DNA of 64,000 nt. Origin: Zygnema cylindricum. Its lineage: Eukaryota > Streptophyta > Zygnematophyceae > Zygnematales > Zygnemataceae. Below the pieces are notes generated by a model. It saw only the letters and a list, made by a program, of their open reading frames with translations, had not been told where the DNA came from and searched no databases. Position numbers and translations under genes: made by a program. Of this stretch, positions 7,856 through 64,000 are shown one piece after another (positions within the stretch are counted from its first letter, which is position 1; the number at the start of each line of letters is the position of its first letter). The stretch covers positions 370,737-434,736 of the forward strand of contig JBBHKE010001764.1 in NCBI GenBank assembly GCA_037447655.1, in the 5' to 3' direction.

Positions 7856-7857
7856 TA

Positions 7858-24577: not shown

Positions 24578-24941
24578 TTTTTTCATGTTTTCTTCTCTTT
24601 TCAACTGTTTATGATTATTTTTTCTTCCTTACTGTCAGATTTTTCTTCTACCTTCTCTCTCTCCTTATTGTCCTCTCCCCTTCAAGTTTTTACTCTCGAC
24701 CAACAGAATTTCTGTAAACCTTTCGTCAATTTCTGACTGAACCAGTACCCTAGTTTGAATACCATTGTCTTTCTTTCCTACAAGTGGACAATTTGCCTTA
24801 TCACTTCTTTTTCCTCGTTTTCCTTCTAGCAAAATTTCCTCTAATTTCTCATTATTCATTTCTTCTTTTCCTCTCACCTTTCCACCTTTCCACCTTTCCA
24901 TCTTACTATGCCTACGAACTGTTTTTTGGATCGCACAAAAA
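24578..24941. repeat. Flank duplication A, left copy
   Basis: About 364 bases, pyrimidine-rich, directly abutting the copia-1 LTR and repeated in the same orientation at 30350-30713, directly abutting the other LTR. By eye the two copies differ at roughly 5% of positions. This is far longer than a normal 5-bp target duplication. Confidence 0.85.
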
Positions 24942-26594: not shown

Positions 26595-26634
26595 ATTTTG
26601 CGTAAGTGATTGCTACAAAAGAAACTCCGTCTCT

Positions 26635-27912: not shown

Positions 27913-28104
27913 CTCCGAAATTTGATGTGAAATTCCCTCGGTGGGAACTTTAGATTTCGGCCTCCTCCATAAGAGCCGACTATGATTCGCATCCGTTACA
28001 ACTCGTTCTCCAATTACATCCCCCTTCTCATTCCAAATCTCTATAGATTGATCACCTCTCGCAAGTAAGCTTCCAACACTCTTTTGGATTTGTGGAACGC
28101 TTAA

Positions 28105-29743: not shown

Positions 29744-29755
29744 GCTCCGATACCA
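29744..29755 (-). other. Copia-1 primer-binding site (tRNA-iMet 3' end)
   Basis: On the element strand TGGTATCGGAGC lies two bases after the 5' LTR. This is the complement of the 3' end of plant initiator-Met tRNA (TGGTATCAGAGC) with one mismatch: the standard plant copia arrangement, unlike elements 2 and 3. Confidence 0.85.
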
Positions 29756-29757
29756 AT

Positions 29758-30349
29758 TGTAGGATCTTAAGCAAAAGACATTCACTTAAATAAATTCACG
29801 AAACATAAAACATAACACAGCTGAAGCTCATAAAAGACAAGAGGAATATTCAGCCAAAAAGAATTATAAGTGTTTTTGACCAAAGCCTCTTTACATCATC
29901 TCTCTTCTCTCTTCTCTTTAAATAATCTCTACTCCAAGATTAATCCTCTAAGATTTAATCATATAAGATTGAATACTCTGCACATGTACACTGCTACCTA
30001 TATACTCGCTACTCTGCACTAAGAGACAACAAGGTAAGACAAGCAAGACTTAGCGTAGCGACGAAGTCTGTCCCTAGCTGACTGTGCACACTGCAAAGAA
30101 GTTTCCACGAAGAAAGTAGCACGCGCTTTCTTCTTTCGAAACGACTAACTCCAAACATTGACTTAAACACGTGTCGTCACACAAAAACACCTGCACGCAA
30201 AATGTGACAACTGCGCACGATAACATAAAGTGACGCGAAACGAAGTAGTATGTTTCGTTTGCGAACGCTTCAAATAGTACCACGAAACGTCATCGCACAT
30301 TTCGTACGATGACGTGATACTTTCACGTCAACAAATAAATGTTAGTATG
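29758..30349 (-). repeat. Copia-1 5' LTR (truncated, 592 bp)
   Basis: Matches the 3' LTR from its inner end to 'gttagtatg', then stops 40 bases short of the expected TGTTGGG end and runs straight into flank copy A'. It has one copy of the 75-base unit that is doubled in the 3' LTR. Confidence 0.9.
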
Positions 30350-30713
30350 TTTTTTCATGTTTTCTTCTCTTTTCAACAATTTATGATTATTTTTTCTTCC
30401 TTCCTGTCAAATTTTTCTTCTACCTTCTCTCTCTCCTTATCGTCCTCTCCCCTTCAAGTTTTTACTCTCGGCCAATAGAATTTCTGTAAACCTTTCGTCA
30501 ATTTTTGACTGAACCAATACCCTAGTTTGAACACCATTGTCATTTTTTCCCACAAGTGGACAATTTGCCTTATCACTTCTTTTTCCTCGTTTTCCTTCTG
30601 GCAAAATTTCCTCTAATTTCTCATTATTCATTTCTTCTTTTCCTCTCACCTTTCCACCTTTCCACCTTTCCATCTTTCTATGCCTACGAACTATTTTTTG
30701 GATTGCACAAAAA
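30350..30713. repeat. Flank duplication A', right copy
   Basis: Direct repeat of 24578-24941. It ends with the same 'gcacaaaaa' at which the left copy meets the LTR, and then continues into new sequence (gagcgagtggg). So A' looks like the original empty insertion site joined to a broken LTR. Confidence 0.85.
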
Positions 30714-32280
30714 GAGCGAGTGGGGGTGTTTGTTTATTCGACAAAAAAACAAATACACGGGAAAAAAAAACAAAAACAAAACACACAATCCACCCACAAT
30801 CCACACATGATCCTCACTCAGTATTGTTATTCGATAATGTATTGTATTTGAATTGATGTAAAACAAATACAAAGTTGGGAACTGAAGGATGCACGCAAAT
30901 TTGAAAACGTTATGGGAAACGGAAAAGTACATCAATCCGTATGGATATGCGACAAGACAGACCAATAAGACAAAAATCTTTCTTTGCAGTTTGCCGTTCG
31001 GGCTGGAATACTTGCAAGCATGGGATTAGAGGAATCCTAATTGTTCTCTATGTTATTGAATTCTAACGTCATCGACTCAACAGAGTAAGAGAAAGAAAGT
31101 GATATTATTGTAGTGAAGATAACTCCTGTTAATATACTTATGTTCACCGACTCTCTCTTGCCATGGATGTAATGTTATGTTTCCGCTTGTGATATGATTA
31201 TGTGGTGATTATTCGGTGTATATGGGAGTGCTTTGAGTGATTTGTTGAGAATCGATCCTACCATTATTTCGATGCTCAGGTGAATCCTTTGTTGCTATTA
31301 CTACATTTATTGATATGTTGTGGTTCACACTTTGAAAGGTTCGTCAAATTTTGGTTAAAATTGCAATAGACCATTGAAATTGGAGCTATTTTTTCATGAC
31401 TAATTTACGGAATATTTACTGGAAAGTCAACGGGGATTTCACCATGAATCCTCATCTTTTTTATTAGAGAGGTATTTATAAGATTTAGCGCTCCCTCCAA
31501 AGCACATACAAAAATGTCCACCTTTAAAAAGAAAAAAACTTTGGTCTATATTATTGCGCATATTCTTGAGCAAGTGAAGTATTATTGATGATTTAAGGTA
31601 ATAATTATGTATTACTGTTATAAGGTTTTTGATCGTTTGAATCATCTTTTAGGAGCAATGCTTTACCACTTGTGTTGTAGGATGAGACAAAAAAGAAAAG
31701 ATAAAAAACCAAATTGAAGGATGCAACAAGACAAGGAAAGAAAAATGAACAGTTGCAAAGTTGAAGGAAAAAGAAATCTTCAAAATTGAGTAAGAAATGT
31801 CAGAAAAAGTTTACAGATGAAGAAAGGGGACCCACTCGATGCTTGAATATCCACCCAAAATCGAAGTCCGAGCTACACGACAACAAATTTTAAACAATTT
31901 TGAAAATATAGTCAAGATCACACATTTTTTAGGTCAAAAGGTAAGGAAAGCGAAACAACACGTTTCAATGACGAATTCACAAGCTCCCTTGCCGGCCCGA
32001 AAAAGTGTATAGAATAGAAGAAGTACATCGCAGGATATAGTCAGTATGCCGTGTATCGCCATATTCTTTGATGTTTTTTTCGCCATCTTTTCCGTGCGCA
32101 TATTTATCGGAATGTTAATCCGACGGTTGGGTTTAAAAGTTAAGGGCCTCGGCTTCTAATTGGCGGTCTCCAACAGAAAATAGTACAGGTGTGCGCAGTA
32201 GAGTCATAGTAAGTGTCGAAAAAACATTAACACATAAGCACTACACCGGCCACCGTTATTACAGCTAATTACATTAATTC
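30714..32280. other. Intergenic, no gene seen
   Basis: AT-rich. No frame over 100 codons with recognisable motifs. A possible M1-type end lies at 32243-32275 ('acaccggccaccgttatta'). Confidence 0.45.
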
Positions 32281-40282: not shown

Positions 40283-40889
40283 AACCCACAGATAAGTTTT
40301 ACACTGAATTGCGATATTGAATCTACAAAACATACACTGGAATCAATGAAAATTACTAATACAGTATTCAGGTTTAGAACAACAACCAACATTCATCCAC
40401 AAGGACAAGCAGAGAAGAAAACATAACACATAATTGATTGAAAAAACCGGCAACCCATGACAAGGTTTAAAAACATGTCGAATATGTTTAATTTATTCGC
40501 TACACAAATTTTAGAGTACAGAAATAGCCGGAATTACCGGCTAAAGCAGCTCCAAAATTGCCATAATTTCAACCCTTACGACAAGCTACCGCCAATATTA
40601 AAAGTACAGCACAACCTCATGACCAAATAAAAACCTTCTTTCTAGCTTATCCCTCCCTCACCCCAGATGCCGCCCTATCTCACTTCCCGCTCTCTACAAA
40701 ATCTCGTTCACCCAAGAAGTACCGGCAACGGTGAGCTTAATTCCCTCATTACGACATACCTACCCAATAGAACCTCAAAGCTGCCTCAAAAAATCTACAT
40801 TACAAAATGAGGCAAAATGATAAAAAAACTCGCTAATTTTTTTCCTCCCTTTCCCTATATCTTCCTTCTCTCCCTCTGTCTTCGGTTCT

Positions 40890-42200
40890 CTACACAATCT
40901 TCTTGGCCCACGAGATACCAGCTGCGGTAAACTGGCTCGGAAGAGGATCGAACTGGAATGTGGCGGCCAACCCCTGCGCGCCGGAAGACATGGTATAAAG
41001 TACGAATTTCTTGACTGTTGCCCCGCCCCTCAGTTTAGCGAACTCGAAGGCAAGGGCGCAAATGGGGTAAGTCGACGGTCCGGAAACATCGATAAGGTCA
41101 ACGTCGTTCCATGGCAAGTTCAAAGCCCTCACAGTTCGGGGAAGGGCGGCGTAAATATCTCCACGGTCGGTGGTTCCAGCGGCAGCCACGAACTTTCCAC
41201 CCAAGTTCCTGATAGCCGTGGGGAAAAGTTTGTAGGTGACAGCTCCGATTCCAGTCTGCAAGTAGCCGAGAGCGTTGGGGGTCGCGGCGAGGTACTGCCC
41301 AATTCCATTCGATCCTGACCTGTATACAACCGACCTAGAAATGCCGCTTTTCCCACTCCAGGAAGCGGAGCCGCAGACGGGGCTCTTGACGGAGGCCGGC
41401 CAGAAAGAGGACTTTGCGAGCCATCGGCAGACCACTTCGGTGGTTCCGGAGCCGTCGGATCGAGCCACGGGAATGACGTTTCCAGAGAGACCGGCCTTAA
41501 TCGCGGACCAGGAGACGGTGGAGGTGTAGATTTTGGCGACTTGGTCGGTGGTCAAACGGATTCCGGAAGCCTTCTTGGTGAAGAAAGAGTACGTGGCGAC
41601 AGTGAAGGGAACGCTGAGCTTGGCGGTTCCTCCGGCCTGGACGTCCTGGGAGGCTGACATTGCCACGTCGGAGAACGCCACTTGGTAGGTTTTGGCGATG
41701 AATCTGGAGATACCGGCGGAGGATCCCACCGAGGCGTAGCTTCCGTACAGAGCCTTGTTGCTCAGGCAGAGCTGCCCGACATACTGATTGAGGGAAAGAG
41801 AGGGAGAGAGAGAGGGAACAAGAATAGGTAAGAAGAGAAATTCATGAGGCAAGGACAGTTTGAACATGTACTAATAGTTAGTAGGAGGGTTCCTTTGGTC
41901 AGTTTATAAAGATATCAAAAGACAATAGAGACAGGGAGAAGAAGGGCTGGTTGAAATAGCAATGGCAAGAGCTCAATGAAGCTCAATAGCAATGGAAAGA
42001 AATGCGTCACGAAAATCCGCAACTTTAGGGCTAATCCGCAAAATGAAAATGTGATGGAGAGAGAGCAAGCGAAACAGTTGCACAGAGGAGTTGGAACAAA
42101 CCTTCTCCACTGACGTTGCGCCACCGATTTTAATTGCTGCCTCGGCGCTGTTGACTGCTGCGAGAGCGACGATGGCGAGGAAAGCGACAATGGCGGCCAT
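40890..42200 (-). CDS. Secreted PstS-like phosphate-binding protein, copy 2
   Basis: Exons 42200-42102 and 41783-40890 around a 318-base GT-AG intron of the same length and phase as copy 1; 330 aa, uninterrupted. The signal peptide and exon 1 protein are identical to copy 1. Ten residues differ, all in exon 2: for example Gly to Arg and Arg to Ala in the SGFIRK stretch, Lys to Thr in GGKAK, and Ala to Ser inside the phosphate loop, giving ARSDGSGTTE, the commoner bacterial-like form. The phosphate-contacting Arg, Ser and Thr are unchanged. Conservation of coding against diverged flanks suggests both copies are under selection or that gene conversion acts. Confidence 0.88.
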
Positions 42201-42302
42201 TGCAGCGAACCGTGAGAGAGAGTGAGAGTGGAATAAGGCGATGGGAGATGTTTAACTCGCTGTGAGTGTCGAATGACGTTGAATATTAGGCGAAAGTAAA
42301 GC

Positions 42303-42382
42303 TTTATAGTTCGCAAGTTCTCGCGTCAAAGGGACGTCACGTCGAAGGGCGGCGGATGGACGTTTTGGGTTTCGACCACGTG
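42303..42382 (-). promoter_or_regulatory. Promoter elements of PstS-like gene 2
   Basis: TATA box CTATAAA (42309-42303), TGACGTC-type site (42339-42333) and G-box CACGTG (42382-42377), in the same order as copy 1. The TATA box is again 109 bases from the ATG. Confidence 0.6.
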
Positions 42383-42905
42383 GCGGGTCTCCATAGATGC
42401 GCATTTTCGCTACGCTCCAGTAGCGTAGAGGCAAAAAGGATTGGAATCTTTTCGTTACTGTTTGTTTGTTTTGCCGGTGGAGCGCGGGCGGAGCCTGACT
42501 TATGCGGGGAAGGCTCATCTAGGTGAGTAAGGAGAACGTGACGTTATCGGAGTCCTGCGGTCGGTGTGGAGCTGCGGAAAATGAAATGATGGGCGGTACA
42601 CCTTTTGCGGACAGATGTAAATCTGATTTTCTGTCGTGTATGTAACTTTTAGGAAAGCGTCCAAAAGTTCTCCTTGACTTATTCGGCAAACGCTTAACGT
42701 TTATTTCCCGGCAGCGAAAGAGTGTTCAGCCTGTTTGCACGGAATTAGAAAAAGGCCAAAGCATTGTGAATGGCTACAGTTCACCGTGAATGCGGGAATA
42801 CACGGAATGGGGAATCTTTGTCATCCTCAGTGCGAAAATTTTTGTCGTTTTTGCGGCTGGTCCTCCATCGGCATATGTGGGAAACGAGGCACTTGGTCGA
42901 ATAAA

Positions 42906-47251: not shown

Positions 47252-48285
47252 TGTTGAAATTGATAGATTTCTAGAGTATTTTCTAGGTTTAATATGTTAG
47301 TATAAAAAGAAAAAGGACAGACAGCCTGCCTCCACCTCCTCTCTCTAACCCTTATACTTGTTGTAGTCACTGAAGGATAGAGAGGGTGGTTGATCCATGG
47401 TTGCCTTAGTCTAACAGGCATTTATTTTTAGTAGGTTACTCTAAAATTATACATGACGGACCCGGGATTTGATCGCGGTACCTACCGGTCGTCAGGTTGA
47501 CCGACAACGGTCAGCTTTATCCAATTAGACAAGGACCAATGCTAAATGCTATAGTATGTGATAGATATATATACATTTAGAAAGGAACAAATTTATTTAA
47601 CTAAAACTGGATACGGCGTGCATAGATGCAGTTTTATTAAAGTACGAAGTACGACATCATTTCTAATACGAATACCACGCATGTTTTTGGCAACGAAACA
47701 AATAACGCGCAAGTATTTATAACGACTACGATTGTGTCTCATTGCAAATCCGACGGCGCACATCATCGCCAAAATCCCACAGTGGTCACATTGGCATTTT
47801 GTGACGTGGCATGACCTGGAGCCACGTGGAGAGATGACATTCGGTCATAGGAATTCCGAGGAATGTACGGACGAGTAAAAAGCAGACTAGCGTCAGCTTA
47901 ATAACTTTGTCGCACATAGGCCGTACACAAGGTACACCGACACTAGTACTTTTTGGTACAGTACAGTAATCTGATTGGTCCGTACTTCCGTAGATAGAAA
48001 TTATTAGAGGGAATCAGGACTTAGAAAATTTTGGTAGGTAGTCACCTCTCCCTTTCAGAGTTTGTACAAATTGGCATTTTTACTGCCTCATAACTTATCG
48101 CTTGGTTGGGCGTTTTCAGAGATTCTTTTTTCTACGAACTCAGGGGAGTCCAGGCTGCACAAGGGTGCATACAAATTGTCAGCCTGATTACTTGGGCAGC
48201 AGTGGCTGTGGCTTAAAGTGGGCTAGTTAATTACTATCTAGAGGCTTCCTGTATTCTGTAGTCCAATAGAGGACACATAATTGCA
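47252..48285 (+). repeat. Copia-3 5' LTR
   Basis: Starts TGTTGAAATTG and ends ATTGCA. A segment on its minus strand (47545-47450) looks tRNA-like: GTCTAATTGG resembles an A box and GATCAAATCC a B box. Confidence 0.93.
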
Positions 48286-48300
48286 GGTTATGGGCCCACC
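48286..48300 (+). other. Copia-3 primer-binding site containing the gag start codon
   Basis: GGTTATGGGCCCACC begins immediately after the LTR. It is the exact 15-base complement of the plant initiator-Met tRNA anticodon arm (GGUGGGCCCAUAACC). The ATG at 48290-48292, which pairs with the CAU anticodon, also begins the gag frame (MGPPSRVPTFNGSWF). Confidence 0.88.
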
Positions 48301-49480
48301 CTCTAGGGTGCCCACCTTCAATGGATCTTGGTTCATCTATTGGGAAGCCATGATGATGGGAGCCTTGTGCGAAAAACGATACTCTGGTATCGTTAGTGGA
48401 CAAGTGAAACGTCCACCTTCGGGAATTCCTCTGGGTTTTGGAGGAGGAAGGTTTTCTGCAGCAGATACTGCTTCCGCGGAGGAGGTTGATGATGGGGACA
48501 ACAGTATATCCGAAACAGGGGAAGGGAAGGAGACACCACTCACCCCTATTGCCATGGCACCAGGATCGGCGGCCGTGAAGACCGTGGAGAACGATAATCA
48601 AACGTGGGAAGACGTAAACATGGCTGCCAAGAACTTCATTCTAAGACACCTCACCCAAGGTTTGGCCACCCCTCACCTTCATATTTACAAGGCTGAGGAG
48701 CTATGGGAGAGTTTGGTGTAAATCTATAGAGCTGGAACTATTCAGGAGCTCCAGTTGGCTGAGCAAAAGCTAGCTAGTTACACTTACAAACGAGGAAAGA
48801 TGTTAGATTATTGTAATGATCTTTCTTCTCTGTATATGGAGATGGAAAGTGCCGGGTGGACAGGTACAATGAAAATGAAAGTTAAGACTCTTATCATAAA
48901 GTTACCAGATGAGTTTGAGAACATAGTGTACCCAGTACAGAGAATGCCTGATAGTTCATGGAAATGGAACATAGTGGTCAGGATGATACTTGTTCAGGAA
49001 AACACAATGAAGATTAGGAGAGGAGGAAAGAGCATTCAAGCTCTAGCAGCAGGAGGGGACCGATGGGGGAAGGACCCAAAGAAACCTTACAACGGGGAAA
49101 GAGATCAGTTTGGAGCACGAAGGCCCCCAAAGGGTCTTTGTCATTTTTGCAAAAAACCATGACACTTCATCGCAGACTGTGTCAAGCTCTCGGAGCTGAG
49201 GCTCGAAGAAAACTGTAGAGGGGGTTATTCGAGAGGGAAGAAAAAGGCACTTGTGGTTACAAAAGTGACAGGAGAGACCGAGGATGAGTCCTCTGAGGAG
49301 GAAGGGGAACTTCTGCTTGACGAGAGTCTGGAGGAGAAGGAGAGCCCTCGAGACAGAAGTGTGCCCTTGGAGCAATTCGAGAAGCTCCACAAGAAAGATG
49401 GATCATCGACTCAGGTGCATCCTTACATATATGTCGTGATAAAGAACTCTTCACTAAACTAAGAAAGATCCTTATTGTAG
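48290..49480 (+). pseudogene. Copia-3 gag and protease
   Basis: The gag frame starts in the PBS and opens VPTFNGSWFIYWEAMM, the usual copia gag N-terminus. TAA at 48719-48721 interrupts it after ELWESLV, and the same frame resumes. The zinc knuckle reads CHFCKKP, then TGA where Gly is expected, then HFIADC. Near 49397 a frameshift moves to the frame with protease WIIDSGASLHIC. So two nonsense codons and one frameshift inactivate it. Confidence 0.88.
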
Positions 49481-49503
49481 AGATAGAGTATGGGGATGGG
49501 AGA

Positions 49504-51115
49504 GTGGTTACCACAGATCTAGTGGGATCAGTAGATCTGAAGGTCTTAGTGGATGGTAAGACTTCTATACTTACATTCAGAGATGTACTCTACAATCCTC
49601 AGCTGAGTAAAAATCTTGTCTCTACGTCTGTGCTAGATGACAAAGAGTTTGATACCTTCACAAGAAAGGGAGTCTTTACAGCTAAGTATGGGGATGAAGT
49701 TTACTTCACGGCAGATAAGGGTAGCCAAGGAATGTTTAGGCTTAACCTGAGTGATGAAAAGAAAAATGCTTATTATGTTGGTGTCCCTAAGTTGATGATT
49801 TGGCATAAGCGGTTGGGGCATGTGCATTTTGATAAGTTGAGGGAAATGAAAAAGCTTGGGGTAGTAGAAGGCATTCAATTTGGGGATAATGAAATGATGA
49901 ATGATTGTAGGGGATGTGCTCAAGGTAAGGCTCATAGACTTCCCTTTCCCAAAGCCGCCACATATAGAGGTGAGAAAGTGTTAGATTTGGTACACACATA
50001 TATTTGGGGACTTGCAAAAGTACCTTCGGTTGGAGAAAAGAGGTTTATGATGATAATAACTGATGATTGGTCTAGATACTCTAGAGTCTACTTTCTGAAA
50101 AATAAGTTGAATCATCAACTTACTTCAAAGAATATAAAGCTTGGAGTGTGAAGTTGCATGAAACCCCCATTAAGAGGATAAGGAGTGATTTACCTCTAAC
50201 CAGTTTGAGGACTATCTGAGAGATGAGGGAGTGCAACACCAGAAAACTGTACCATATAACTCAGAACAAAATGGGGTAGCTGAGAGGTTGAATAGAACAC
50301 TTGGAGATAGTGCATGCAGTATGTTGGCAGACAAGAAAATAGGAAAGAGATTTTGGGCAGAAGCAATGAGCTGTGCCAACTACATTAAGAATAAAGTCCT
50401 TACCTCAGCTGTAAAGGGAGTGACACCTTATGAGAGATGGGTTGGAAGGAAACCACATATATCACACCTTAAAGTATTCGGTAGCCAAGTTTAGAGTCTT
50501 GACACAGATAGGAAAAACTGGAAACTAGATGTTAAGGGAAAACCTGGATACTTTGTGGGATATGATGAGGATGTTAAGGGATATAGAGTCTATGAATTAT
50601 TAAAGAAAGATATCATTCTGGTCAAACACTTAGTTGTCATGGATGAAGGGAAGTCATTTGACCCGTTCAAATATACAAAGAAGATAAAAATCAGATTTGA
50701 GTCTGAAAGTGAGGAGAACTCGATCGTTCCCGAAAGGGACACGAGTGAAACCGTGATTGCAAATTCAGGGGAGATCTAAGATACATGAGACTCACAGGAA
50801 ACCTCACATACTCTTATGGACTTCGAGGAGATAGAAGAAGCGGGACAAGAACCGGCTTCCATGGACAGGGGAGCCGATGAGACAGTGAGAAGAAATCTAA
50901 GACTTCCATCCATTACAGCTTCGCAGTTTGAGGGAGGAAGGAGGAGCAGCAAAATGATACAAGAAAAACAAGCTGCTCATAAGGTAACTAAGCTATCTCA
51001 CCCAGATCAGCCTCAGTCTTACTCGGAGGCAGTGAATAGTCCAGAGAAAGAAAGATGGATTAGAGCCATAAATGATGAGATGGCTTCTATCATGGAAGCA
51101 ATACTTGGGAATTAG
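49504..51115 (+). pseudogene. Copia-3 integrase region
   Basis: 49504-50151 carries LVSTSVLDDKE, WHKRLGHVHFDKLREM and CRGCAQGKAHRLPFP (pre-integrase zinc site), then LVHTYIWG where the first catalytic Asp is expected (a Tyr is seen) and ITDDWSRYSRVYFL. After stops and a frame change, 50231-50494 holds YNSEQNGVAERLNRTL with the catalytic Glu. 50555-51115 holds GYFVGYDEDVKGYRVYE and an acidic linker. The middle Asp (SDNG type) region near 50180-50200 is damaged. Confidence 0.85.
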
Positions 51116-52635
51116 CGGATTGTCCTCTAGACATAAAACCTATTGGGTGTAAATGGGTATTTAAACTAAAACTGAACCCTGATAATACCATTGAGAGATA
51201 TAAGGCTCGATTGGTAGCAAAGGGGTTCACTCAAAAAGAGAGGATTGACTACGAGGAGACCTTTGCTCCATTTGTTTAGTTTCCCTCAGTAAGGATACTC
51301 CTCAGTCTAGCAGCAGCGGAAGACATGGAAATCCACCAGATGGACATTAAGACAACTTTTCTTAATGATGAGTTAGAGGAAGAAAATTTCATGAGGCAAA
51401 CCGAGGGGTTCGTGGAAGAAAGAGAAGAGAGCAAAGTCTGCAGGCTCATAAAATCCTTAAATGGACTGAAGCAGGCTCCCCGACAGTGGAATAAGAAACT
51501 AGATGAGTTTCTCACCGATCTGGGATATATCGAGATCAGCTCTGACCATTCTATCTATATGTTTGAAGATGAGAATGGTGTCATTTTTATTGCAATTTAT
51601 GTGGATGATCTGCTTGTGTTGAGTAAGTCTTTGGAGAAGATCAATAGGCTGAAGAAAGATCTTAGGGGCAGATTTGATATATATGATTTTGGGGAGGCAA
51701 AATATATTTTGTCTATCCAAATGGAGAGAGACAGGGGGAAGAAGATTATCAGACTTACTCAGAAAGAAGCAATAGGTAATATGCTTGAGAAATTCCAGAT
51801 GGAAAATGCTAACAGTTGTACCACTCCCATGGACTTGAAAAAAGTAAGTGATGGGAGTGTAGAAGGAGTGATGATCTTATACGATCAGATGAGTCTAGAG
51901 GAGAGAGAGTTTATGAAGTCTATCCCTTATAGACAGGTCGTAGGAAGTTTAATCTACTTTATGAACTGTACCAGGTCGGACATAGCGGCAGCAGTAGGAG
52001 TACTCAGTAGGAGTCTTAATGATCCTAGAAAGAGAGACTGGGAGGCAGCCAAGAGAGTCATGAGATATCTGGTAGGAACCAGAGAATTATGGTTGCATTT
52101 GGGAGGGGAGCACACTAGTATCACCACTTGGAGTGATGCCAGTTATGGGGATGCACCTATGAGAAGATGCACTTCTGGATATGTTTTTTATGTGGGGGAA
52201 GGTGCTTGCTGTTGGAGCAGTAAGCAACAAAAAGTGGTTGCTCATTCTACTATGGAGTCTGAGTATATGGCGTATTGTTCTGCTGTAAAAAAACTAATGT
52301 GGGTGAAATCATTATTGCAAGAACTGGGATATATCAAGGAGGGAGTGCATGAAATCTTTTGCGATAATCAAGTTGCAATCGCAATCGCAGCCAATCCAAA
52401 ACACCATTTCAAAGCAGAACATATGGACATAAGATTAAGCTTCGTAAGAGAAAAAGTTGAAAATAAAATTTTAAATCTTGTGTATAGACCTGATGAAGAA
52501 ATGGTGGCTGACATGATGACTAAACCAATGCCCTCTCCTAAATTAAAACATTTTTCGGGAAAAATGCGGGTTGAAAGAAAAATTAAAATTAGACTAGAAA
52601 ATAAGGAGAGTGTTGAAATTGATAGATTTCTATAG
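51115..52635 (+). pseudogene. Copia-3 reverse transcriptase and RNase H
   Basis: [20 protein letters not shown] opens the RT; TAG at about 51279 interrupts just before FPSVRILLSLA. From 51325 the frame is open for 436 codons: HQMDIKTTFLND, LNGLKQAPRQWN, AIYVDDLLVLSKS (catalytic Asp pair), TPMDLKKVS, PYRQVVGSLIYFMNCTRSDI, then RNase H with TWSDASYGDAPMRRCTSGY, HSTMESEYMAYC and FCDNQVAIAIAAN (catalytic D, E, D), HMDIRL and the C-terminal DMMTKPM. Apart from the nonsense codon this part looks functional. Confidence 0.92.
52601..52610 (+). other. Copia-3 polypurine tract
   Basis: ATAAGGAGAG immediately precedes the 3' LTR start TGTTGAAATTG. Confidence 0.75.
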
Positions 52636-53628
52636 TATTTTCTAGGTTTAATACGTTAGTATAAAAAGAAAAAGGACAAACAGCCTGCCTACACCTCCTC
52701 TCTCTAACCCCCATACTTGTTGTAGGCACTGAAGGATAGAGAGGGTGGTTGATCCATGGCTGCCCTAGTCCAACAGGCAATTATTTTTAGTAGGTTACTC
52801 TAAAAATATACATGACGGACACGGGATTTGATCCCGGTACCTACCGGTCGTCAGTTTGACCGACAGCGGTCAGCTTCTTCCAATTAGACAAGGACCAATG
52901 CTAAATGCTATAGTATGTGATAGATATATATATACATTTAGAAAAGAACAAATTCATTTAACTAAAACTGGATACGGCGTGCATAGATACAGTTTTATTA
53001 AAGTAAGAAGTACGACATCATTTCTAAAACGAATACCACGCATGTTTTTGGCAACGAAACAAATATCGCGCAAGTATTTATAACGGCTACGATTACGTCC
53101 CATTGCGAATCCGACGGCGCACATCATCGCCGAAATCCCGAAGTGGTCACCTTGGCGTTTTGTGACGTGGCATGACCTGGAGCCACGTGGATAGATGACA
53201 TTCGGTCATAGGAATTCCGAGGAAATCGCAAAAAAGCAAACCGCGTCCGCAATAGCCTTGTCGTATAGGCCCAAAAGGTACCCGACACTAGTACTTTTTG
53301 GTACAGTACAGTAATCTGATTGGTGCGTACTTCAGTAGATAGAAGTTATTAGAGGGAATCAGGACTTAGAAAATTTTGGTAGGTAGTCACCTCTCCCTTT
53401 GAGTTTGTACAAATCGACATTTTTACTGCCTCATAACTTATCGCCTGGTTGGGCATTTTCAAAGATTCTTTTTCCTACGGACTCAGGGGAGTCCAGGGTG
53501 CACAGGGGTGCATACAGATTGTCAGCGTGATTACTAGGGTAGCAGTGGCTGTGGCTTAAAGTGGGCTAGTTAATAACTATCTAGAGGCTTCCTTTATTCT
53601 GTAGTCTAATAGACGACACAAAATTGCA
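52611..53628 (+). repeat. Copia-3 3' LTR
   Basis: Matches the 5' LTR along its length with scattered changes and a few short indels (the largest near 53220-53280). The tRNA-like minus-strand segment is also present (52895-52810). Confidence 0.93.
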
Positions 53629-53633
53629 GATTG

Positions 53634-54976
53634 TGATTGGACAGTATTGGGTTTGCTTGTGTGGTTTTGCTTTAGGGTTACCTTTCCTTTATTTATTCCA
53701 TGGTCTGGCCGAATCTGGTTATCTCAGATTCGCTTGTTGTTTGTTGATTTCCAGCTTATGTGTGTTGAGATTTAGGTGAAGTCTTTATTAATCGAACTCT
53801 TGTAAGGAATATAAACAAGTGGCTATCCGTTGGCTTAATATCCCTGTGCTCTTAAAATTGTGTGTCTTGCTCTATTTTTTGCAATTTTTGACATTTTCAG
53901 TGTGGTTGTATTTTCTGCAATTTTACATTGATAGTTTTTGTATATTCTCGGCAATTTAAAATTGCACTTTTTCTCTATTTTCTCCGATTTTAATTTGATA
54001 TTATTTTTGGGTGTTTGTGCAACTTGATAATAGATCTTGGCATTTTGGAATATTCTTCTAAGTTGTACTTGTTTGTTGAAAAAAAAAAAACTAAAGAAAA
54101 AAAATCTATAACTAGTTTTACAATTTTAATTATTGTTTGCTTGTTAGTTGACATAATTATATCATTAACCAGTTTTTCGACCAAGCATGTACTACACTAA
54201 TTTGGGTATTTGGGGTTTTCTTGTTAGCTTTTGTTGTGAAAGGCATCGATCTTTCACATTGTGACATACCTCACCAAGCAAAGGAGATGGTGGAGCTGAT
54301 TCGTTTTTTGGGAGCTCTGCAAAACTCTGGTTGGAGCGAACAACCACAGTTCACCCTTGGCAATCACTTGGTTGCTAAGAGTGGTTTGTAAGTTTACTAT
54401 GCGTTGCGGGTGCAGGCGCATGTCGAGATAGCTGTTGATCGTCTAAAGGGTACGTCAGTGGATTGGGTCCAACCGGACCTAATTGTATTGAGCATCTGCA
54501 TTGTCCACGCTTTCTATGCTTGCCATCTGGCCGTGAGTGGCCTTGTGTTATTTTTGTTGTATGTATGGCGTGGAATTTCTTGGTTAGTTTTGGTCGTTGG
54601 TGGCCTTGGATAGAAATATTTTCTGACTTTGGAGCTTTAGATCTGCACCTCCGGGTGCTTGTTTAGCAGTTTTCTGCCTCTATAGATCTGGCCTTTCGGC
54701 CTTGCCCACTCGTTTGCAGGGTAGAGGTTTCGGTTAAAGCGACTTCTTGATTAGATCTGGCCATCGTGGTCATGTTAGAGACTTTTTGAGATTGTTGCCC
54801 ACGTGTGTGGTATGGTTTGGCATTTGTTGCACCTCGTATAGGGCGTATACATTAGTGGATTAGTTTGTTATCTCAATCATTTTTATGCCCACTGATTGGG
54901 ATAATCTTGATTACTCATACGGATCTACACGTAGTGGTGGAACCTTCCTTTCATCAAATTCGATCAATCAAATTTA
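53634..54976 (+). other. Leader of the gypsy element (LTR not resolved)
   Basis: AT-rich, without coding. 53640-53880 has features of an LTR R-U5 region (a 'ctcttgtaaggaatataaac' stretch and CT/GT-rich DNA), but no matching second copy was found right of the element, so the boundary is uncertain. Confidence 0.4.
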
Positions 54977-54991
54977 TGGAATTCGGTTCCT

Positions 54992-56290
54992 TTGATGCTA
55001 AGCCCTTTAATTGAATCTAAAGCGTCCTCTACTCGTTCAGATTTAACGACCGTGTCATCTTTGTCATCCATTATATCCACGCTATCTGTGGAAGAGGTTG
55101 ATAACGAAAGAGAACCCGATTCAGAGTTCCTTTTTTTTTTGTCTTCGTTAGCACCGATTCAGGCTTTGAATTCGGCTAACTTATCTCTTTCGATGGCCTC
55201 CACATCGGAGGGTACTCTTGGTAAAATTCAATTCTGCTTTTCCGGAATGAAGGATACTATGAGTTTATCTCATTTTCGAATGTTATTTGATGCTGAAATG
55301 CCAGATCTAGCTTTTCGTTATCACGATAAATTTGACATCCGTGTCTCTTTTTTCCCTTCTCGGGCTTTACCTTCGCGGTTCCGCCCTTACCTCACATTCC
55401 CGTAAGTATGAAGGCATACTTGCGATGACCGAATATTCCCCACTATTTGTTGGTACGCTTGAGGTTGTAGGTCAAGCAGAAATTCCTTATAAAGCTGCTA
55501 TTCTCGAGGTCTTAGATGCACACGACAATATACTTTATCCTGCTGTTGCAGAGGTTCCCCATCAATATGCCATTGCAGCACGAGCAACTGTCCGGCTCAT
55601 CCTGGGATCAACGTACCATTACGATATCCTCTCACCGTAATGTTTAATTTGCTACAAGAGGAGTATCGCATGCAAAATCTTGACCAAGTAAAGGAATTAA
55701 TGAATTTTGAGCGTAAACCGGGCGAAACTGCCCCCGCTTTACGAGCCCACATGAAGACCTTGCAAGAAGCGTTACCCGATCTAATATCAGATGCTGAAGA
55801 TGTCCTGAATTTCGTTGGAGGGTTTCCTTTCTAGTCAAAGAAATTTATTCAAAGCCATCTTACCCAAACATACGGTTTCAAATTTACTTTCCACCAAGCA
55901 GCTCAATACGCCGTAGAATACGAGATGAAAAATTGTTGGTGGGAGGCCCACGATCGACCAAAAGCCCCTCAAAAAGAACCTAACCCTTTCAATTCACCAA
56001 ATCCTCGTAACTTGGGGCCAAATAATCATCCACCAAGGGTCATAGCCATGGGAACCCCACCAAATCAATCATCCAATCGGATTTGTTTCCAATGTGGTAA
56101 GACCGGGCATGATGCTCGGATGTGTCCAGATAAATCTACGACTTGTACCCAATGCAAACAGACCGACCACTTTGCGTATCGTTGTCACATCAAAAACCTT
56201 GAATTTTCATATCAAAATCAGATTCGAAACAGTGCACTCCCGGCTATATCTGCCAGAGTAGTCCAACCGGTGCCGGTTAAAGAGACATAA
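54992..56290 (+). pseudogene. Gypsy gag
   Basis: Frames at 54992-55405, 55332-55640, 55640-55834 and 55925-56290 follow each other with frameshifts. 55640 onward resembles a retrotransposon gag core (LLQEEYRMQNLDQVKELMNF ... GETAPALRAHMKTL). Two CCHC knuckles follow: CFQCGKTGHDARMC (about 56084) and CTQCKQTDHFAYRC (about 56145-56195). Confidence 0.75.
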
Positions 56291-56336
56291 AAAACTCTCC
56301 ACCTAAGGTGTCTCGGAGAGAAAAGAGAGAGAGGAA

Positions 56337-57035
56337 ATGCAAACTCAAATGGCCGCTATGATCAAAGACCAATTTGCAGCCTTCATGGCTCAAATGAAAC
56401 CGCCAACTCACCTAACTGGTATGGCCCGTACAGTTGTCCACCTTCCAACGCTAGCTGGTCGAGTTTTACAAGATTCAACCATCCAAAAGCGAGCAACCAC
56501 GTTTGAAAAGGGGAGAGTTGATCATAATCGCGAAGGTAAACAGTCTAGCATGCGTCTTCCATTATCATTCTCTAAAGAGATAGAAACTAACTTGCCAGAA
56601 ACAACTTCCACCATAACGGCGGAAGCACTCACCATTCTTGACCGCTCTATTCACGACAGTCATAGGGTTAAAGAAAGATTGTGCATTTTATCTACTTTGA
56701 TTTCCGATTGTCCCAACCCTAAAACTACCGTCACATCCATCCCATATGCAACATTACAGGCTTTACAAATGAACCGCAATCTTGACGCTCTTAGACCTAT
56801 CTTTACCAACGAGCGTAGCTCACTTGACCCACACATCAAGTTTTTTGATAATTGGAAGGGTGCATTTTCAGTCAATGTTGTCACACCGTCCTTACCACTT
56901 ATGGACACCGGTGCAAAACAAGTCATTTTGGGGTTATCTTTTGCACTTAAACTAGGTCTGGTAGCTAATAAACTTCAGTCCACCACCACACGCATACTCA
57001 CCTCAGCGGGAACTACCGAACCAATACTCAGTTGA
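56337..57035 (+). pseudogene. Gypsy protease region
   Basis: A 232-codon frame ending in an aspartic protease start: PLMDTGAKQVILGLSFALKL (DTG at about 56904). It reaches RILTSAGTTEPIL and then stops at 57033-57035, earlier than the usual end of the domain. The next sequence in another frame is methyltransferase motif II, so the second half of the protease and the methyltransferase N-terminus seem to be deleted (inference). Confidence 0.72.
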
Positions 57036-57900
57036 CACTGACCCTTTAGCTCGGAAAGTCCAAACTCATCAATGTAATCTGTTACACAGACAATATCCAT
57101 ATCTTTTCCCCAAATCTGCCTTTGCTCACATGCATACAGCCTTACCTCAAGATATTCGTTTGATAGGCAATCAACAACTTCTCGATGTGGAACCAATCGA
57201 TCTTCTCTTTGCCGGTTGGGAGTGTCAATGAATGTCACAAGCAGGCTAAGGTCTCGGCTTAGTTGATCCTCACACTAAATTATTCTTTAAATTACTTCGT
57301 ATCATGCATTTTCTGCAAGCATTAGATCGACCATTGGGATATATTTTGGAAAACGTGCAGCCTATAACGATCCACGACCTACAGTGTTAGCTGATTACAA
57401 GCGGATAGAAGCACTAATTGGTCCTCCTTTTATCATTGATGTCGCTCGTCACGGGTCCTTAGCTCATAGGGTCCGATCTAAATGTACCAACTTGATTGAT
57501 ATTGGTCCCCTTAGAGAAGGAAATCTTTTTGTCAGACCCCTTTTTACAGATATTCAGACCGCACTTTTGCCTTTTCATAAAGTCCAAACATGTCTTCTGC
57601 TTGATCACCCACCGAATTACAACATTAAGGTTTTGGGTCAACCACTCAAAGTTCTCCTCACTCTAGTGTCTTATCCACACTCTCACGCTTTCTCCAGCGA
57701 TGGGCTCGACCTGCTCAGAAATATTCACACAGCCGGCCTAGATGAGCCTACAGCCACAGAACGGAAACACCTTATGCATTTCCTTCCCAACACTACGGCT
57801 GCCTATGGTCTCACAGAACGGTAGTGCTGCACCCTTTTAGGTCGTGTCATGGACCCTCAATCCCTCTCATTTATCTTAAGGCCTCGAATTTACAGCAGGT
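57035..57900 (+). pseudogene. C5-cytosine DNA methyltransferase domain within gypsy pol
   Basis: Conserved C5-methyltransferase blocks appear in order. Motif II-like SVDTDPLARKV lies at about 57030-57060. Motif IV is IDLLFAGWECQ, with the catalytic Cys at 57223-57225 (Trp-Glu-Cys-Gln where most enzymes have Pro-Cys-Gln), then GLGLVDPHTKLFFKLLRI. Motif VI is YILENV (ENV 57349-57357) and motif VIII is GSLAHRVR then CTNL (about 57451-57495). Next come a variable target-recognition stretch, motif IX-like EPTATERKHLMHF (about 57745-57785) and motif X-like LLGRVMD (about 57835-57853). Motif I (FxGxG) is not found. TGA (57229-57231), TAA (57247-57249), a frameshift near 57380 and TAG (57822-57824) inactivate this copy. 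Methyltransferases captured by gypsy elements are reported in charophytes (de Mendoza et al. 2018), where self-methylation was proposed. Confidence 0.8.
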
Positions 57901-58229
57901 CGTTACACACAAACCCATCTGTCTCAACCAGCTGGGGGGGGAATGTATCATCAATTTCTAAACACATACTTGCACGATCCCCTATCACCCTTAGAGAGAC
58001 ACCTTCTCAATTTTTCCTCTTTCTATCCCCTATAAAACCTTCTCCAGATGTCACAATCTACGACTTCCTGAATCCTAGTCACATGTCATGGTCCATTCCA
58101 GCATATAGTGCTGCCCAATCTGCTCCCTCTAGTCATATTTCAACGCCTCCTCACTGGACCGCAGCCTTTCCTACTCCCAGCTAGCACTATTGGGTAAACT
58201 GCTTACAGGAAACACCGATTGTTTACTCA

Positions 58230-59700
58230 TTGGGTCAGTCACTTATCGCGAATGAACATCTAGCTTTTGCACAAGCAATGGAAGCGATAACGATTAAAGG
58301 TTTAGAAAACCCTAAATGGAAATTTGGCTGTAATCTCTCTCAATCTGAACATGATCTACTGAACAAAGTCATTCTCCAGAATATCGACTCTTTTGCTTTC
58401 TCTATGAACGATCTTAGTCACCATACCACCTATAAAATGTTTATAGATCTCGAAGACGATCGTCCCATTTTCAAGCCAAAACACACCTTATCCAAGACAA
58501 AATGGGAATTAGTGGACCAACGTTGCGCTGAATTGGAGAAAGTTGGCCTCATTTATCGGTCGGACTCTACTTTTGCAACACCCACTGTCATGCCCCGAAA
58601 AAATGATGCCGAAAGAAAATTTACTGATCGCTGAATGTGCAGCGATTATCGTGAACTCAATGTTAAAACTATGTAAGATTGACATCCGATTCCATTTGCC
58701 GAAGAAATATTTGATCATGTAGGGGGCGCTAAATATTTTAGTATTCTTGATTTGCGACAAGGTTTTAACCAGATTGAAATAGAGGAAAAAGATAGGCATA
58801 AAACCGCCTTTTGGGGTAGTGATGGTTGTTGGGAATGGTGCGTGATACCTTTTGGACTTAAAAACGACCCCGCAGTTTTTCAAAAAGTAATGGATTCATT
58901 TTGAAGTGGTTGTAAGTTTGCGCGATGTTACATTGATGACCTAATTATCGCATCTGCCACAATCGAGGATGAAGCAACTCATATCGAATGGGTCCTGACT
59001 GAACTGAAAAAGGTTGGATTAAAATGTCATCCAGCTAAATGTACTTTCGGGTCCGAGGGTGTGCGTTACCTTGGACATTTCATTTCCTTCAAGGGAATCA
59101 CACCACTTGAAGCAAAATCGAGGCTATCAGCAAACTACCAACCCCCGCGGATCTCACAAGTCTTCGAGCCTTTCTGGGACTAACTAATTATTATCGCAGG
59201 TTTGTCCCTAGTTTCAGCACTATCGCGTCACCATTAAACGATCTGCTCAAGAAAGAGGTTCCTTTTGTATGGGGACCTGAGGTCCCTTTTGTATGGGGAC
59301 CTGATCAGATTTTAAGTTTTCAGAAGTTGAAAGATGCCCTCTGTAGTGCTCCCATCCTCCGACCTCCTAATCACAAATTACCTTTCTACATACAAACAGA
59401 CTTTGGAAAGCTTAGCATTGCGACCATCTTAACTCAGCGAGAACTAACAGGAGAAGAATAAGCGGAAGAAATAATCGTACAGAGTCAAATTACACTAGTT
59501 ATAAAGAAGAATGTCTTGCAGCAGTTTGGGGTATTGTACACTTTCGTCACTACCTTTACGGAAAACCGTTTACACTCCTAACCCACCACCAACCTTTACA
59601 TTGGCTGATGACAAACGATAAATCGTCAGGAAAATTAGCGCGATGGGCATTAATTTTACAAGAATACGATGTGAAGATAATTTACCCTAGGATTACTTAG
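58230..59700 (+). pseudogene. Gypsy reverse transcriptase and RNase H
   Basis: KMFIDLEDDRPIFKPKHTLS opens the RT (58436). HPIPFAEEIFDHVGGAKYFS and LDLRQGFNQIEIEEKDRHKT follow (58680-58800; first catalytic Asp), then the active-site YIDDLII (about 58929-58949) and VRYLGHFISFKGI (59060-59100), all with intervening stops (for example after KFTDR and MDSF). RNase H is only recognisable in fragments: YYRRF and PFVWGP, then QTDFGKLSIATILTQREL (about 59395-59450) and the HQPLHWL element (59588). A 23-base stretch, 'ggtnccttttgtatggggacctga', is repeated in tandem at 59258-59304. Confidence 0.85.
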
Positions 59701-59946
59701 TCTGAATTTAAACGGCATTTCCCGAAATCCTCTGCCATGGACCACAGACAACGGGGTCCGGCAAGACTTTGATGACGATGACGTAGCGACAATCTCAGCA
59801 GGGTTTTATATTACACATTCCTTAGCCTCGCTGCCCAACTCCCGTTCTGCCCCAGATCTATGGCGGGACGGAGCACTAATTCTTTTCCTCTCCTCACAAA
59901 CTTTCCGACCGGGCACTACATCTAAAGAGGAGGAAAGAGTAAAGAA

Positions 59947-61101
59947 ATGAGCTTCAAATTATCTGTGGTTAGGTGGATCGCTAGTTCGATTGTTAGCGAC
60001 GGTAGTCATAGACACGTGCCTCGTCCTACGGAGCGTCTCTCGCTGATCGAACAATTTCACACTAAGCTTGGTCACTATGGGACCAAACGCACCTTAATCC
60101 TGCTGCAGGGACGCTATTGGTGGTATGGGATGCAATCTGATGTCGCATCGGTATTGCACAAGTGTGCAATATGTGATCTTCTGCGTACCTCTTTCAGCAA
60201 CCGGCAGACTACCCTCCAACCGCTACCTATCACGGGGTTATTTTACCGCTGGTTTGGCAGATCCCTTTCCCATATTTCGGAGGGGGAAACAATATATAAT
60301 GATCATGATTGAAAATTTTAGCAAATGGGTTGAAGTAGTGGCGTTACCACACAAAACGGCAAAGCTCACCACCGGAGCTTTTAAAGAACATGACTTTATG
60401 AGATACGGGGCTTCAGCCGAAGTCCTCACAGATCAAGAGACAGAATTCCGCGGGGAATTCCAAAAAATGTTAGATAATGCGCTCATAGACCACCGTCGAA
60501 CCAGCCGAGATCATCCACATGCTGATGGATTGGCGGAACGAGCAGTTCAAACTTTCAAGCGAGCATTACGCAAGCACTGCTTGGAGAATCATATTACAGT
60601 ATGGGACGAGTCCCTTGGTTACATTACCATGGGATATCTTACGTCTCTACAGGCGAGCCTTGCTAATTTCAGTCTATACTATGTCTTATTTGGGCGTCAA
60701 CCCTTATTGGGTAGGAATATCCAGAAAGCTGCAAGCTTTCTGCTTCCCTTAATGTTTGACGGGGTTTTTCTGGAAGAACTTACTAATCGGGCGCTGTTTT
60801 TTTCCCGAGAGATGCCCATGGATCTTGACAACATGCAGATCGCTTAGAATCAAGATACTTTGCGCTTCGCCACGACACGCAACGGCAGTTACTGACCTCA
60901 ATAGAAGCCTTAGCGCGTGGGAGATTATGTCTATTTGCGACGACAATCCTTCGACACTTTGGACACCGATGTTTCAACCTACATTCTCCGTATTATCGAA
61001 GTGGACACGAATGGCATGCTGGGACTTCAACGAGCCGATACGCGAACTTTTCGGGAGCATGTGAAGAATTGTGCCCCATGTTATTTGCCGGATCTCTCTT
61101 A
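59947..61101 (+). pseudogene. Gypsy integrase
   Basis: The HHCC zinc site is FHTKLGHYGTKRT ... HKCAICD (about 60055-60175). In the next frame the core carries YIMIMIENFSKWVEVVALPH, VLTDQETEF (catalytic Asp) and GLAERAVQTFKRAL (catalytic Glu) within 60125-60847. The C-terminal GDYVYLRRQSF and LGLQRADTRTFREHVKN block (60917-61101) is the usual gypsy integrase tail; no chromodomain is seen. Frameshifts separate the three parts. Confidence 0.85.
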
Positions 61102-61696
61102 GGATTTGGTTCCCATGCGCATGCCTATCACTGAGGCTACAGAATGCATACTCACACTGAGGCTACAGAATGCATACTTTGCAACTGGGCTGACGGAGAA
61201 ACTTCCATGCTCCTACGCGACCATTGCAACCAAGGATAACACATGGAGTGTTTGGTCCCTCCATTGACGGCGGTTCCAAACGGCCATTTGTTTTGTCACG
61301 GCTGCCGAGAGTTACCAATCGTATTAGCCAGCTCTTCGGCAGGCTAAAGAGCTGGGGGGGGAATAAACTGAGCCTCCTAGCTTCCTCTCTCACCCTACCT
61401 TTATTTTTCTTGTGATATGTTTATTTGTTGCTTGCTGCTTGTACAAATTTGTGTCGCAGATTTTCCCGATTTGTCCATGACTTTCTTGTTTATTTCTTTG
61501 TCATTTATCTTTCTGCTGGTTGTGTTGCGTGTTTATCATTTCCTTTGTCACATGCACGACAAGAAGATTACGCCTCTAAGAGATTTCAAAAGTCAACGCC
61601 TACTAGTTGGTAACATGTGTTGCGGCAATTGAAAGTTTCTCTCGATAGCGAGAGATGGAAATGGTGGGACCTGATTTTAAGTGTTGGGCAGAAGTT
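61102..61696. other. Gypsy 3' end and flank
   Basis: A 22-base segment ('gaggctacagaatgcatact' and neighbours) is repeated directly at about 61131-61177. The G run near 61352 is taken as polypurine tract; a 3' LTR should follow but could not be verified, and M1 begins at 61697. Confidence 0.4.
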
Positions 61697-61913
61697 CACC
61701 GTGAATCGCTATTAGTGTTAGTAATTTGTTCATCACTTAAAATATCTTTTCTCCGTACACACGTGTCCGATTTTAACATGGAGACCGCCGATGGGAAGGT
61801 GAGAATATTGGCTTTCAATGGCAACCGTCAGATCCATAATCCAACTAGCGTGCACGGATAAAAGATGTTTTAAGCGGCAAAAAAAACATTAACAATAATA
61901 GCGATACACGGTG
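61697..61913. mobile_element. MITE-like element, family M1
   Basis: Left end CACCGTGAATCGCTATTAGT, right end its complement with small changes, ending CACGGTG and followed by TA. 217 bases, non-coding. The internal 'tcacttaaaat' after the left repeat is shared with the other M1 copies. Confidence 0.8.
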
Positions 61914-62654
61914 TAGTGGACCGAGAGAAGAGCCTCATGTAATTTTAGTAGAGGATCCTCCAAACACGAGGCGATCTTCGTCATCAACAATGAAACTAGA
62001 GGAAGACTTAGAATATTATTTACTCTTAGGCTGAAGAACTGGAGGTAACTAGCGTGAGAGTGCACCAAAAATAAATGCACTCTCTCTGTATAAAGGTACT
62101 TTTTAATTTTACCTTTTAAGCGTGTCCTGTTGGAAACACCTGAGCTGTACCGGAGAAGATCCGTGTACAACATTGCTGAAAGAGAGACGCGTGGGACGAT
62201 TTCCGAGTCCATAGATGAGATAGGGTGGTAATAGTGGATTCGAACTTGGTACAATAGTGTGAAAGACAATGAGAGCACAACTATATCCTTTCCATCATCC
62301 AGATGCAATAATTGTCGTTGACTACTTGCGAGGAGCATAATGACGCAGCATGTTCTTTATGGTGTAAAGCCGAGTCAGTGAATGTATCTTAAATTGTGTG
62401 TGACATTAGTTCGTGTGCATACAATTAAATATTCATTTATGAGGAAATTGGGTGTTTGTATGTAGGTGGTACAAAACCCACTGTACGATGCGATGTTCTG
62501 ATTAGTTAATTAGGCAGTATGGTTAGCTAGGCGGTAGAAGACTATGTAAGTAAAAAACTCACTAGTAGGACTCGTCGCTCAAAAAAGAATTAAAAATGAG
62601 GTAGAAGAGCAAGAACCTTCGGTCATAAAATTGGAAGAGTTAGTGAATACATTA
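61914..62654. other. Intergenic, no gene seen
   Basis: A 149-codon minus-strand frame (62338-61889) overlaps the M1 end and has no recognisable motif. Nothing else is supported. Confidence 0.4.
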
Positions 62655-62854
62655 CACCGCGTGTTGCTATTAGCGTTAATGTTTTTTTTTTCACTTAAAA
62701 CTTCTTCTTTGAGTGCATACTTCTTCTCATTAGATTGTTCATCTGACCGTTGTGATGGAAAGTTACGATGCTCACCTTTTAATTGACGTTTCCCAATCTA
62801 AAATCGGACAAAAAACATGTTATGAAAACACTAACACTAATAGCCATACACAGT
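62655..62854. mobile_element. MITE-like element, family M1 (degenerate right end)
   Basis: Left end CACCGCGTGTTGCTATTAGC preceded by TA; right end 'ctaatagccatacacagt', mutated. About 200 bases, with internal 'tcacttaaaac' as in the sister copies. Confidence 0.72.
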
Positions 62855-63587
62855 CAAACTGATGCGCAACATGAATCCGAGGGAAGGAATGAACCAACAT
62901 TGTTGGTGAGGGGAAATAATCCCTCCAAACTAGCATCGCTTTTCCTAAGAGGAATAAGAATGAACTCGACAAACAAAGGACATGCTATTTTGTTATTAAT
63001 TTTGTGCCTGTTATATCTTTCAATGTTTTTTCTTGTTGGTTCTTTCGCTTTGTTCCCCCCTTGAGTTGTATCCACGTGCATTCGGTTTTCCAGTTTCGTC
63101 TTTGTCTTTTATTGTTTGTTCGCATATACTCAATGGTTTACCATAGTAATTTCTTAATAAAGTCTTTTCGCTTGAGGAATAAGGAGGGAAATTTGGTGTA
63201 TGCATCCTCAGCTCAGACTTGTGAGCCCTTAACTTTGAATGAAAAAGCATTAGCATTTAAAAAGAAGAATATATTAATGGAAGTTGTGAATGATGAGAAT
63301 GGCATCCATCATGAAAGGCCCTGACTTAAAAAACCTTCAAAAATCCTAAAAAACCCTTGTGACTCGGTAGTTACCAAAAAACAAGAACATTATAGGATGC
63401 AGGTTTGTAAAGACCCAAAATCAAAAAAAAAGACTGAGCCATTTACGTCTATAAGTAATACTTTTGCATTGCACCACTTCAAAGCTGTTTTACAAGTTGA
63501 TAACATGCATGGGAATTCGACTACATTTGGGATTAATGACATCAGCATATAAATGTACCGATGCAAGCTCACATCATCGGAAAACAA
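62855..63587. other. Intergenic, no gene supported
   Basis: Short hydrophobic frames only (63004-63324 on +, 63256-63020 on -), without family motifs. Confidence 0.4.
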
Positions 63588-63912
63588 TTGGACAATAATC
63601 GGACAATAACTGGTCAATAATTGGACAACAATTGGACAATAATCGGACAATAACTGGTCAATAATTGGATAATAATTTGGCAATAATTGGACATTATTGG
63701 ACAATAATCGGACAATGATTGGACAATAATTTGACAATAGTCGAACGATAATTGGATAATAATCAGTCGACAATTGGACAATAATCTGACAATAATATGG
63801 CATTAATTGGACAATAATTGGAAATAATTGGACAACAATTGAACAACAATTGAACAACAATCGAACAACAATCAGCCAATAATCTTCAAATAATCGAACA
63901 ATCGCCGGACAG
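63588..63912. repeat. Minisatellite with 11-bp period
   Basis: About 28-29 units of the type ATTGGACAATA, in tandem with an 11-base period. Near the left end a four-unit block (44 bases: attggac.., atcggac.., actggtc.., attggac..) is repeated twice, so a higher-order unit exists. One minus-strand frame reads through it as Ile/Val/Leu-rich repeats; this is a by-product of the repeat, not a gene. Confidence 0.9.
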
Positions 63913-64000
63913 GTATCGGGCAAGTAATTACAATGCTAAAATGTAGATAGTCCACTCTATTTGATTGTAGTCAACCGTCCGTGGATTTGGAATGCAATGG

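Follow-up and report, generated by a model that had tools for sequence, protein, structure and literature searches.

Does a retrotransposon in the streptophyte alga Zygnema cylindricum carry a DNA methyltransferase of its own? Retroelements that carry the kind of enzyme that silences them are a puzzle, and each further member of this group offers another place to ask whether the enzyme serves the element or the host. The original prediction placed a cytosine-5 DNA methyltransferase (DNMT) inside a Ty3/gypsy element at 57035..57900 of the 64,000-nucleotide stretch of DNA analysed here (the window). The location was right and the limits were not; they were corrected to about 57031-57929. The stretch is very probably the decayed remnant of a Ty3/gypsy LTR retrotransposon with a cytosine-5 DNMT between its protease and its reverse transcriptase (RT).

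Results

Domain organisation

All parts of the element lie on the + strand. A gag-like region (54935..56290, +) carries two CCHC zinc knuckles at 56084-56125 and 56144-56185 (zf-CCHC, PF00098, E = 2.2e-5 in 55835-56287); its upstream part was assigned by eye from the list of open reading frames (ORFs), and a Pfam search of 55493-55831 within it gave no match. The N-terminal part only of an aspartic protease (56904..57032, +) follows, with DTGA at 56904-56915; it was matched by PF13650 (E = 0.007) and PF13975 (E = 0.025), both under their cut-offs. The DNMT remnant (57031-57929, +) comes next and is read in two frames, frame A (57031..57366, +) and frame B (57366..57929, +). Directly behind it is a 15-base purine tract, AGCTGGGGGGGGAAT (57930..57944, +), resembling a central polypurine tract and identical to 61350-61364. 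The RT (58185..59180, +) is broken at several places and has YIDD at 58929-58940 (RVT_1, E = 2.8e-10 in 58905-59180); its N-terminus (58185-58631) was assigned by eye, a Pfam search there being without a match. An RNase H-like domain (59111..59458, +; PF17919, E = 1.1e-11) and an integrase (59926..60844, +) complete the series, the latter with an H2C2 zinc-binding domain (PF17921, E = 1.4e-14) and an rve core (PF00665, E = 7.4e-8, 33 bits against a cut-off of 32.6). The second copy of the purine tract (61350..61364, +) was assigned as the 3' polypurine tract from its position after the integrase.

The order protease, RT, RNase H, integrase defines Ty3/gypsy elements (Metaviridae). This order was observed directly: the Pfam matches run from a weak protease, under cut-off, through RVT_1, RNase H and H2C2 to rve, with the integrase after the RT, and they bear out the predicted class of element. 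The DNMT, flanked by the DTG protease and the Ty3/gypsy RT, was likewise found where it had been predicted, as judged from the coordinates and from a match to PF00145.

The two halves of the methyltransferase

Cytosine-5 DNMTs are defined by the catalytic Cys of motif IV, the ENV of motif VI and the RxR of motif VIII. All three are present across frames A and B, the last as HRVR. Frame A contains VDTDPLARK, which is like motif II, then motif IV (AGWECQ, 57211-57228) and motif VI (GYILENV, 57337-57357). Frame B contains motif VIII (LAHRVRS, 57459-57479), a stretch resembling a target-recognition domain, an IX-like block (KVLLTLVSYP, 57648-57677) and two X-like blocks, EPTATERKHLMHF (57744-57782) and TLLGRVMDP (57831-57857). 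The predicted series of motifs, IV then VI, VIII, target recognition and IX/X, was therefore recovered in that order, but not in a single frame: the motifs are split between two + frames, which join near 57366.

The profile check proposed with the prediction was positive for frame A (57037-57366), which scored 36.4 bits against PF00145 (E = 5.2e-9, curated cut-off 22) with its two stops read as X. The read-through of A and B, again with stops as X, scored 35 bits. Without this device only 10.9 bits (E = 0.3) were left for the unbroken piece 57250-57387, and two other unbroken pieces, 56965-57228 and 57291-57821, gave no PF00145 score. Alignment of frame A to motifs IV-VI of DNMT3A scored 61 against a shuffle mean of 7.6 (12.3 SD), a value equalled by none of 1000 shuffles. 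Judged by its sequence, frame A is homologous to the cytosine-5 DNMTs, and this homology of the first half was observed directly. AlphaFold models of the two halves, made with no alignment, had mean pLDDT values of 36 and 49, too poor to use.

Frame B alone found no match in Pfam, NCBIfam or PDB sequences. Its global alignments to DNMT3A were at chance level, with 361 and 225 of 1000 shuffles as good. In local alignment the stretch around motif VIII did better, 1 of 1000 shuffles attaining its score. When the tail was aligned locally, the two X motifs did not fall opposite each other, and 22 of 1000 shuffles were as good. A motif X pattern, composed post hoc after both sequences had been seen, occurred in 7 of 200,000 shuffles of frame B; in the window, all six frames taken together contain it once. 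The phmmer alignment of A and B to DNMT3A extends through motif VIII. Frame B was thus assigned to the DNMT from context, namely the joint phmmer alignment, the order of the motifs, the comparison of motifs VIII and X with shuffles, and a frame that continues open into the RT. This frame was observed directly. From DNMT frame B to the RT N-terminus, 57291-58634 contains three stops, counting the terminal one, in 448 codons, and none of 200 shuffles had so few; the segment was picked stop to stop and begins just after one stop. So few stops argue for one Pol polyprotein and not for two adjacent fragments. With frame B running into the RT N-terminus, the DNMT lies within the Pol ORF of the gypsy element.

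Lesions

The inactivating lesions were also directly observed. Stops are present at 57229 and 57247 in frame A, at 57822 in frame B and at 58182, and together with the frame change near 57366 they split the DNMT and its connection to the RT. The protease frame runs as far as 57032, and VDTDPLARK comes directly behind it. When the three + frames of 55300-58700 were scanned by pattern, no SAM-binding motif I (FxGxG) was found in the DNMT region; of two weak matches elsewhere, the gag-like region holds one and the protease the other. The simplest reading suggests that an internal deletion took the end of the protease together with motif I. The stops, the frameshift, the truncated protease and the missing motif I mark the copy as dead, and for want of motif I it was classed as a remnant and not as a working enzyme. 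Going by its sequence, the present copy should methylate nothing now and is expected to be inactive. With the stops, the frameshift and the missing motif I, the predicted methylation of the element's own cDNA is not supported for this copy.

Element ends and CpG content

No pair of LTRs was found by a repeat finder over 52000-64000 (at least 40 bases) or by blastn of 53000-63000 against the window. Local alignment of 61360-62000 to 53600-55400, where LTRs were sought, scored 23, where 30 shuffles averaged 23.9. Primer-binding sites of the initiator-Met type had four matches in the window, against 3.5 expected, and none between 53600 and 55400. The missing LTRs and primer site were read as losses in a decayed copy, which was therefore classed as a remnant and not as a complete element. 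The ratio of observed to expected CpG was 0.85 in the element, 0.87 in the window and 0.68 in the DNMT part. As the element is near the value of the window, there is no clear signal of methylation decay.

Other features of the window

Rfam and tRNA scans of the window gave no matches. A self-complementary repeat at 61697-61913, like a small inverted-repeat transposon, has relatives at 7648-7860, 32049-32233 and 62650-62810; starting at about 61697, it may have cut the 3' end of the gypsy element. Direct repeats at 47639-48292 and 53000-53635 (90% identical) flank an RT of the Ty1/copia type (RVT_2, E = 3e-50); the second may begin before 53000, which was the edge of the query. Observed/expected CpG in 48300-53000 is 0.40, against 0.87 in the window. 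Further direct repeats at 24578-25601 and 29755-30713 (about 93-95% identical) flank a long gag-pol that is copia-like and lies on the - strand (ORFs 26166-29466). An inverted duplication joins 21588-23964 and 40358-42745, with 88.5% identity over 2.4 kb. Its first copy has an ORF for a protein like phosphate-binding proteins (PF12849, E = 5.6e-16) and its second a similar ORF at 40890-41870. The ORFs 3613-4014 and 6213-7013 match the start and the end, respectively, of the divergent PAP2 family model (DUF212; E = 2e-12 and 3.8e-9), and are perhaps one host gene split by an intron. A tandem array of an eleven-base unit occupies 63551-63878 and is crossed by a - strand ORF (63390-63935) as a repetitive frame.

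Type of methyltransferase and relatives

In the domains rearranged methyltransferases (DRM), motifs VI-X are set before I-V. A rearrangement of this type was ruled out by the motif order found here (IV, VI, VIII, IX/X-like), which is canonical. Among solved structures, the best match of A and B together was DNMT3A (24.2 bits, residues 38-153), followed by DNMT3B (18.1), HaeIII (17.6, residues 53-110) and HhaI (13.4). Frame A alone gave a tie between HaeIII (20.2 bits) and DNMT3A (20.0), which leaves the assignment to DNMT3 weak. An affinity to DNMT3 is, from these scores, likely but tentative.

The tie leaves some room for the capture of a bacterial or viral methylase, similar to Dcm or HaeIII, and not of a eukaryotic DNMT3. 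In keeping with such an origin, frame A also matched the NCBIfam model TIGR00675 (dcm; E = 1.1e-8, 35.1 bits), under the model cut-off of 100.65, and the one database protein recovered with a PF00145 label was 48% identical over 21% of the query. Once motif VIII is included, however, DNMT3A leads HaeIII by 24.2 to 17.6 bits over a longer stretch. Moreover, in none of 65 prokaryotic and viral loci encoding AGWECQG do the next 80 residues of the ORF contain the DNMT motif EN[VTI]; these loci (7 from IMG/VR and 58 from GTDB) include many short, chance-like frames and at least one pair with the same protein. In IMG/VR the pattern GWECQDF was found in no stretch and GWECQGF in one, in a frame of 20 residues that is not a DNMT. 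Similar motif forms containing Trp occur in ORFs of plant retroelements. A prokaryotic or viral source is judged unlikely; it overlaps with our preferred explanation, which does not hinge on the class of the DNMT.

A first search of protein databases returned no relative among 275 candidates at E = 1e-3. The PF00145 protein above came from a second search (E = 8.4e-4), as the only one among 2655 candidates at E up to 1. Neither the protein databases searched nor scans of IMG/VR, plasmids and GTDB yielded a close relative. Within the window there was no second copy, other tblastn matches being found only at E above 6.

The duplicated purine tract

There are exactly two copies of the purine tract in the window, one directly behind the DNMT (57930) and one beyond the integrase (61350). 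Shuffled windows had 0.11 matches on average when up to two mismatches were allowed, and none of 100 had two. The gag-like ORF starts about 3.0 kb away from the first tract, and the second tract follows 3.4 kb downstream, which puts the first near the middle of the remnant. Central polypurine tracts are known from lentiviruses and Ty1. By position and identity, a central polypurine tract would be the natural reading of the tract at 57930; alternatively, it may be left over from the capture of the DNMT.

The tract also bears on whether the arrangement is a one-off accident, in which a host DNMT pseudogene, or a single captured copy, came to lie between gypsy fragments by nested insertion or recombination and never belonged to a replicating family. 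The first tract could then mark the boundary of an element, and such an origin would fit with the lack of another copy in the window and of relatives in the collections searched. Against this, the frame stays open across the tract into the RT (the three stops in 448 codons given above), which disfavours a nested element, and the sequence after the first tract is by eye unlike that after the 3' tract. A DNMT inside a Gypsy Pol ORF has also been published for Klebsormidium nitens, as described in the available part of PMC5890265. An accident of this kind is thus very improbable. Chance resemblance in a decayed spacer with no methyltransferase at all can be dismissed: frame B has no profile match, the region is broken and its best piece without the X device has E = 0.3, but for frame A chance is refuted by 36.4 bits against a cut-off of 22 and by the shuffle test, in which 0 of 1000 reached the alignment score.

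Discussion

The arrangement is best explained by an ancestor in which one Pol polyprotein would have comprised protease, an unrearranged and probably DNMT3-like cytosine-5 DNMT, RT, RNase H and integrase. In intact relatives the protease would presumably free the DNMT inside the particle. The DNMT might then act on the double-stranded cDNA ahead of its integration and methylate it, and a new copy would thus arrive already marked like host DNA; we hold this last step to be about evenly balanced between true and false.

It is possible, if on the whole doubtful, that the remnant stands for a separate Ty3/gypsy lineage outside the K. nitens family, with a DNMT3-like domain of the WECQ type, the form that the original prediction put forward as a possible mark of a subfamily, and a central polypurine tract at the border between DNMT and RT. 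If this were so, plus-strand synthesis would start at two places and the resulting cDNA would be methylated, and capture of a DNMT by gypsy elements would be a wider and long-lived strategy and not the event of one alga. A new observation in the Zygnema remnant is the identical 15-base purine tract that follows the DNMT and recurs behind the integrase. If intact relatives prove to share the duplicated tract and WECQ, the family could be traced cheaply by these two sequence markers. Capture of a DNMT by a retroelement is rare and already known from a few algae, and the Zygnema remnant is of interest mainly as a lead to intact relatives.

A thin check of the literature found one study of retroelements that carry DNMTs, with two lineages (de Mendoza et al. 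2018, PMC5890265, available part). It bears out the precedent in charophytes and dinoflagellates that the original prediction had claimed. Three articles that cite it (PMC12344493, PMC11244446 and PMC9861306) name no further DNMT-bearing gypsy element in the passages covered.

The closest case found is KnitGypsy-Dnmt3 of K. nitens, which, according to the same part of PMC5890265, has a DNMT3-type domain in its Gypsy Pol ORF, under purifying selection. Such selection on the DNMT across copies, with Ka/Ks < 0.2, serves as a mark of the family. Both are LTR Gypsy elements with a cytosine DNMT of unrearranged motif order in the Pol ORF, the DNMT3-like affinity being tentative in Zygnema. KnitGypsy-Dnmt3, compared here by its text description, has DIRS-like repeats (PMC5890265, legend of Fig. 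4), whereas no repeat ends were found for the Zygnema copy, which is dead and without motif I. The enzyme of KnitGypsy-Dnmt3 had no activity in a yeast assay, a result that its authors call inconclusive, and the Symbiodinium DIRS enzymes carried out de novo CG methylation in yeast (PMC5890265, available part). SymbioDIRS-Dnmt3 and SymbioLINE-Dnmt of Symbiodinium are likewise cytosine DNMTs borne by retrotransposons, but of the DIRS and LINE classes and not of Ty3/gypsy, and their capture was independent (PMC5890265, as available). Among host enzymes of solved structure, the whole read-through matches DNMT3A best. The motifs of plant DRM are rearranged, whereas the Zygnema DNMT has IV, VI, VIII and X-like blocks in canonical order and is fused to retroelement domains.
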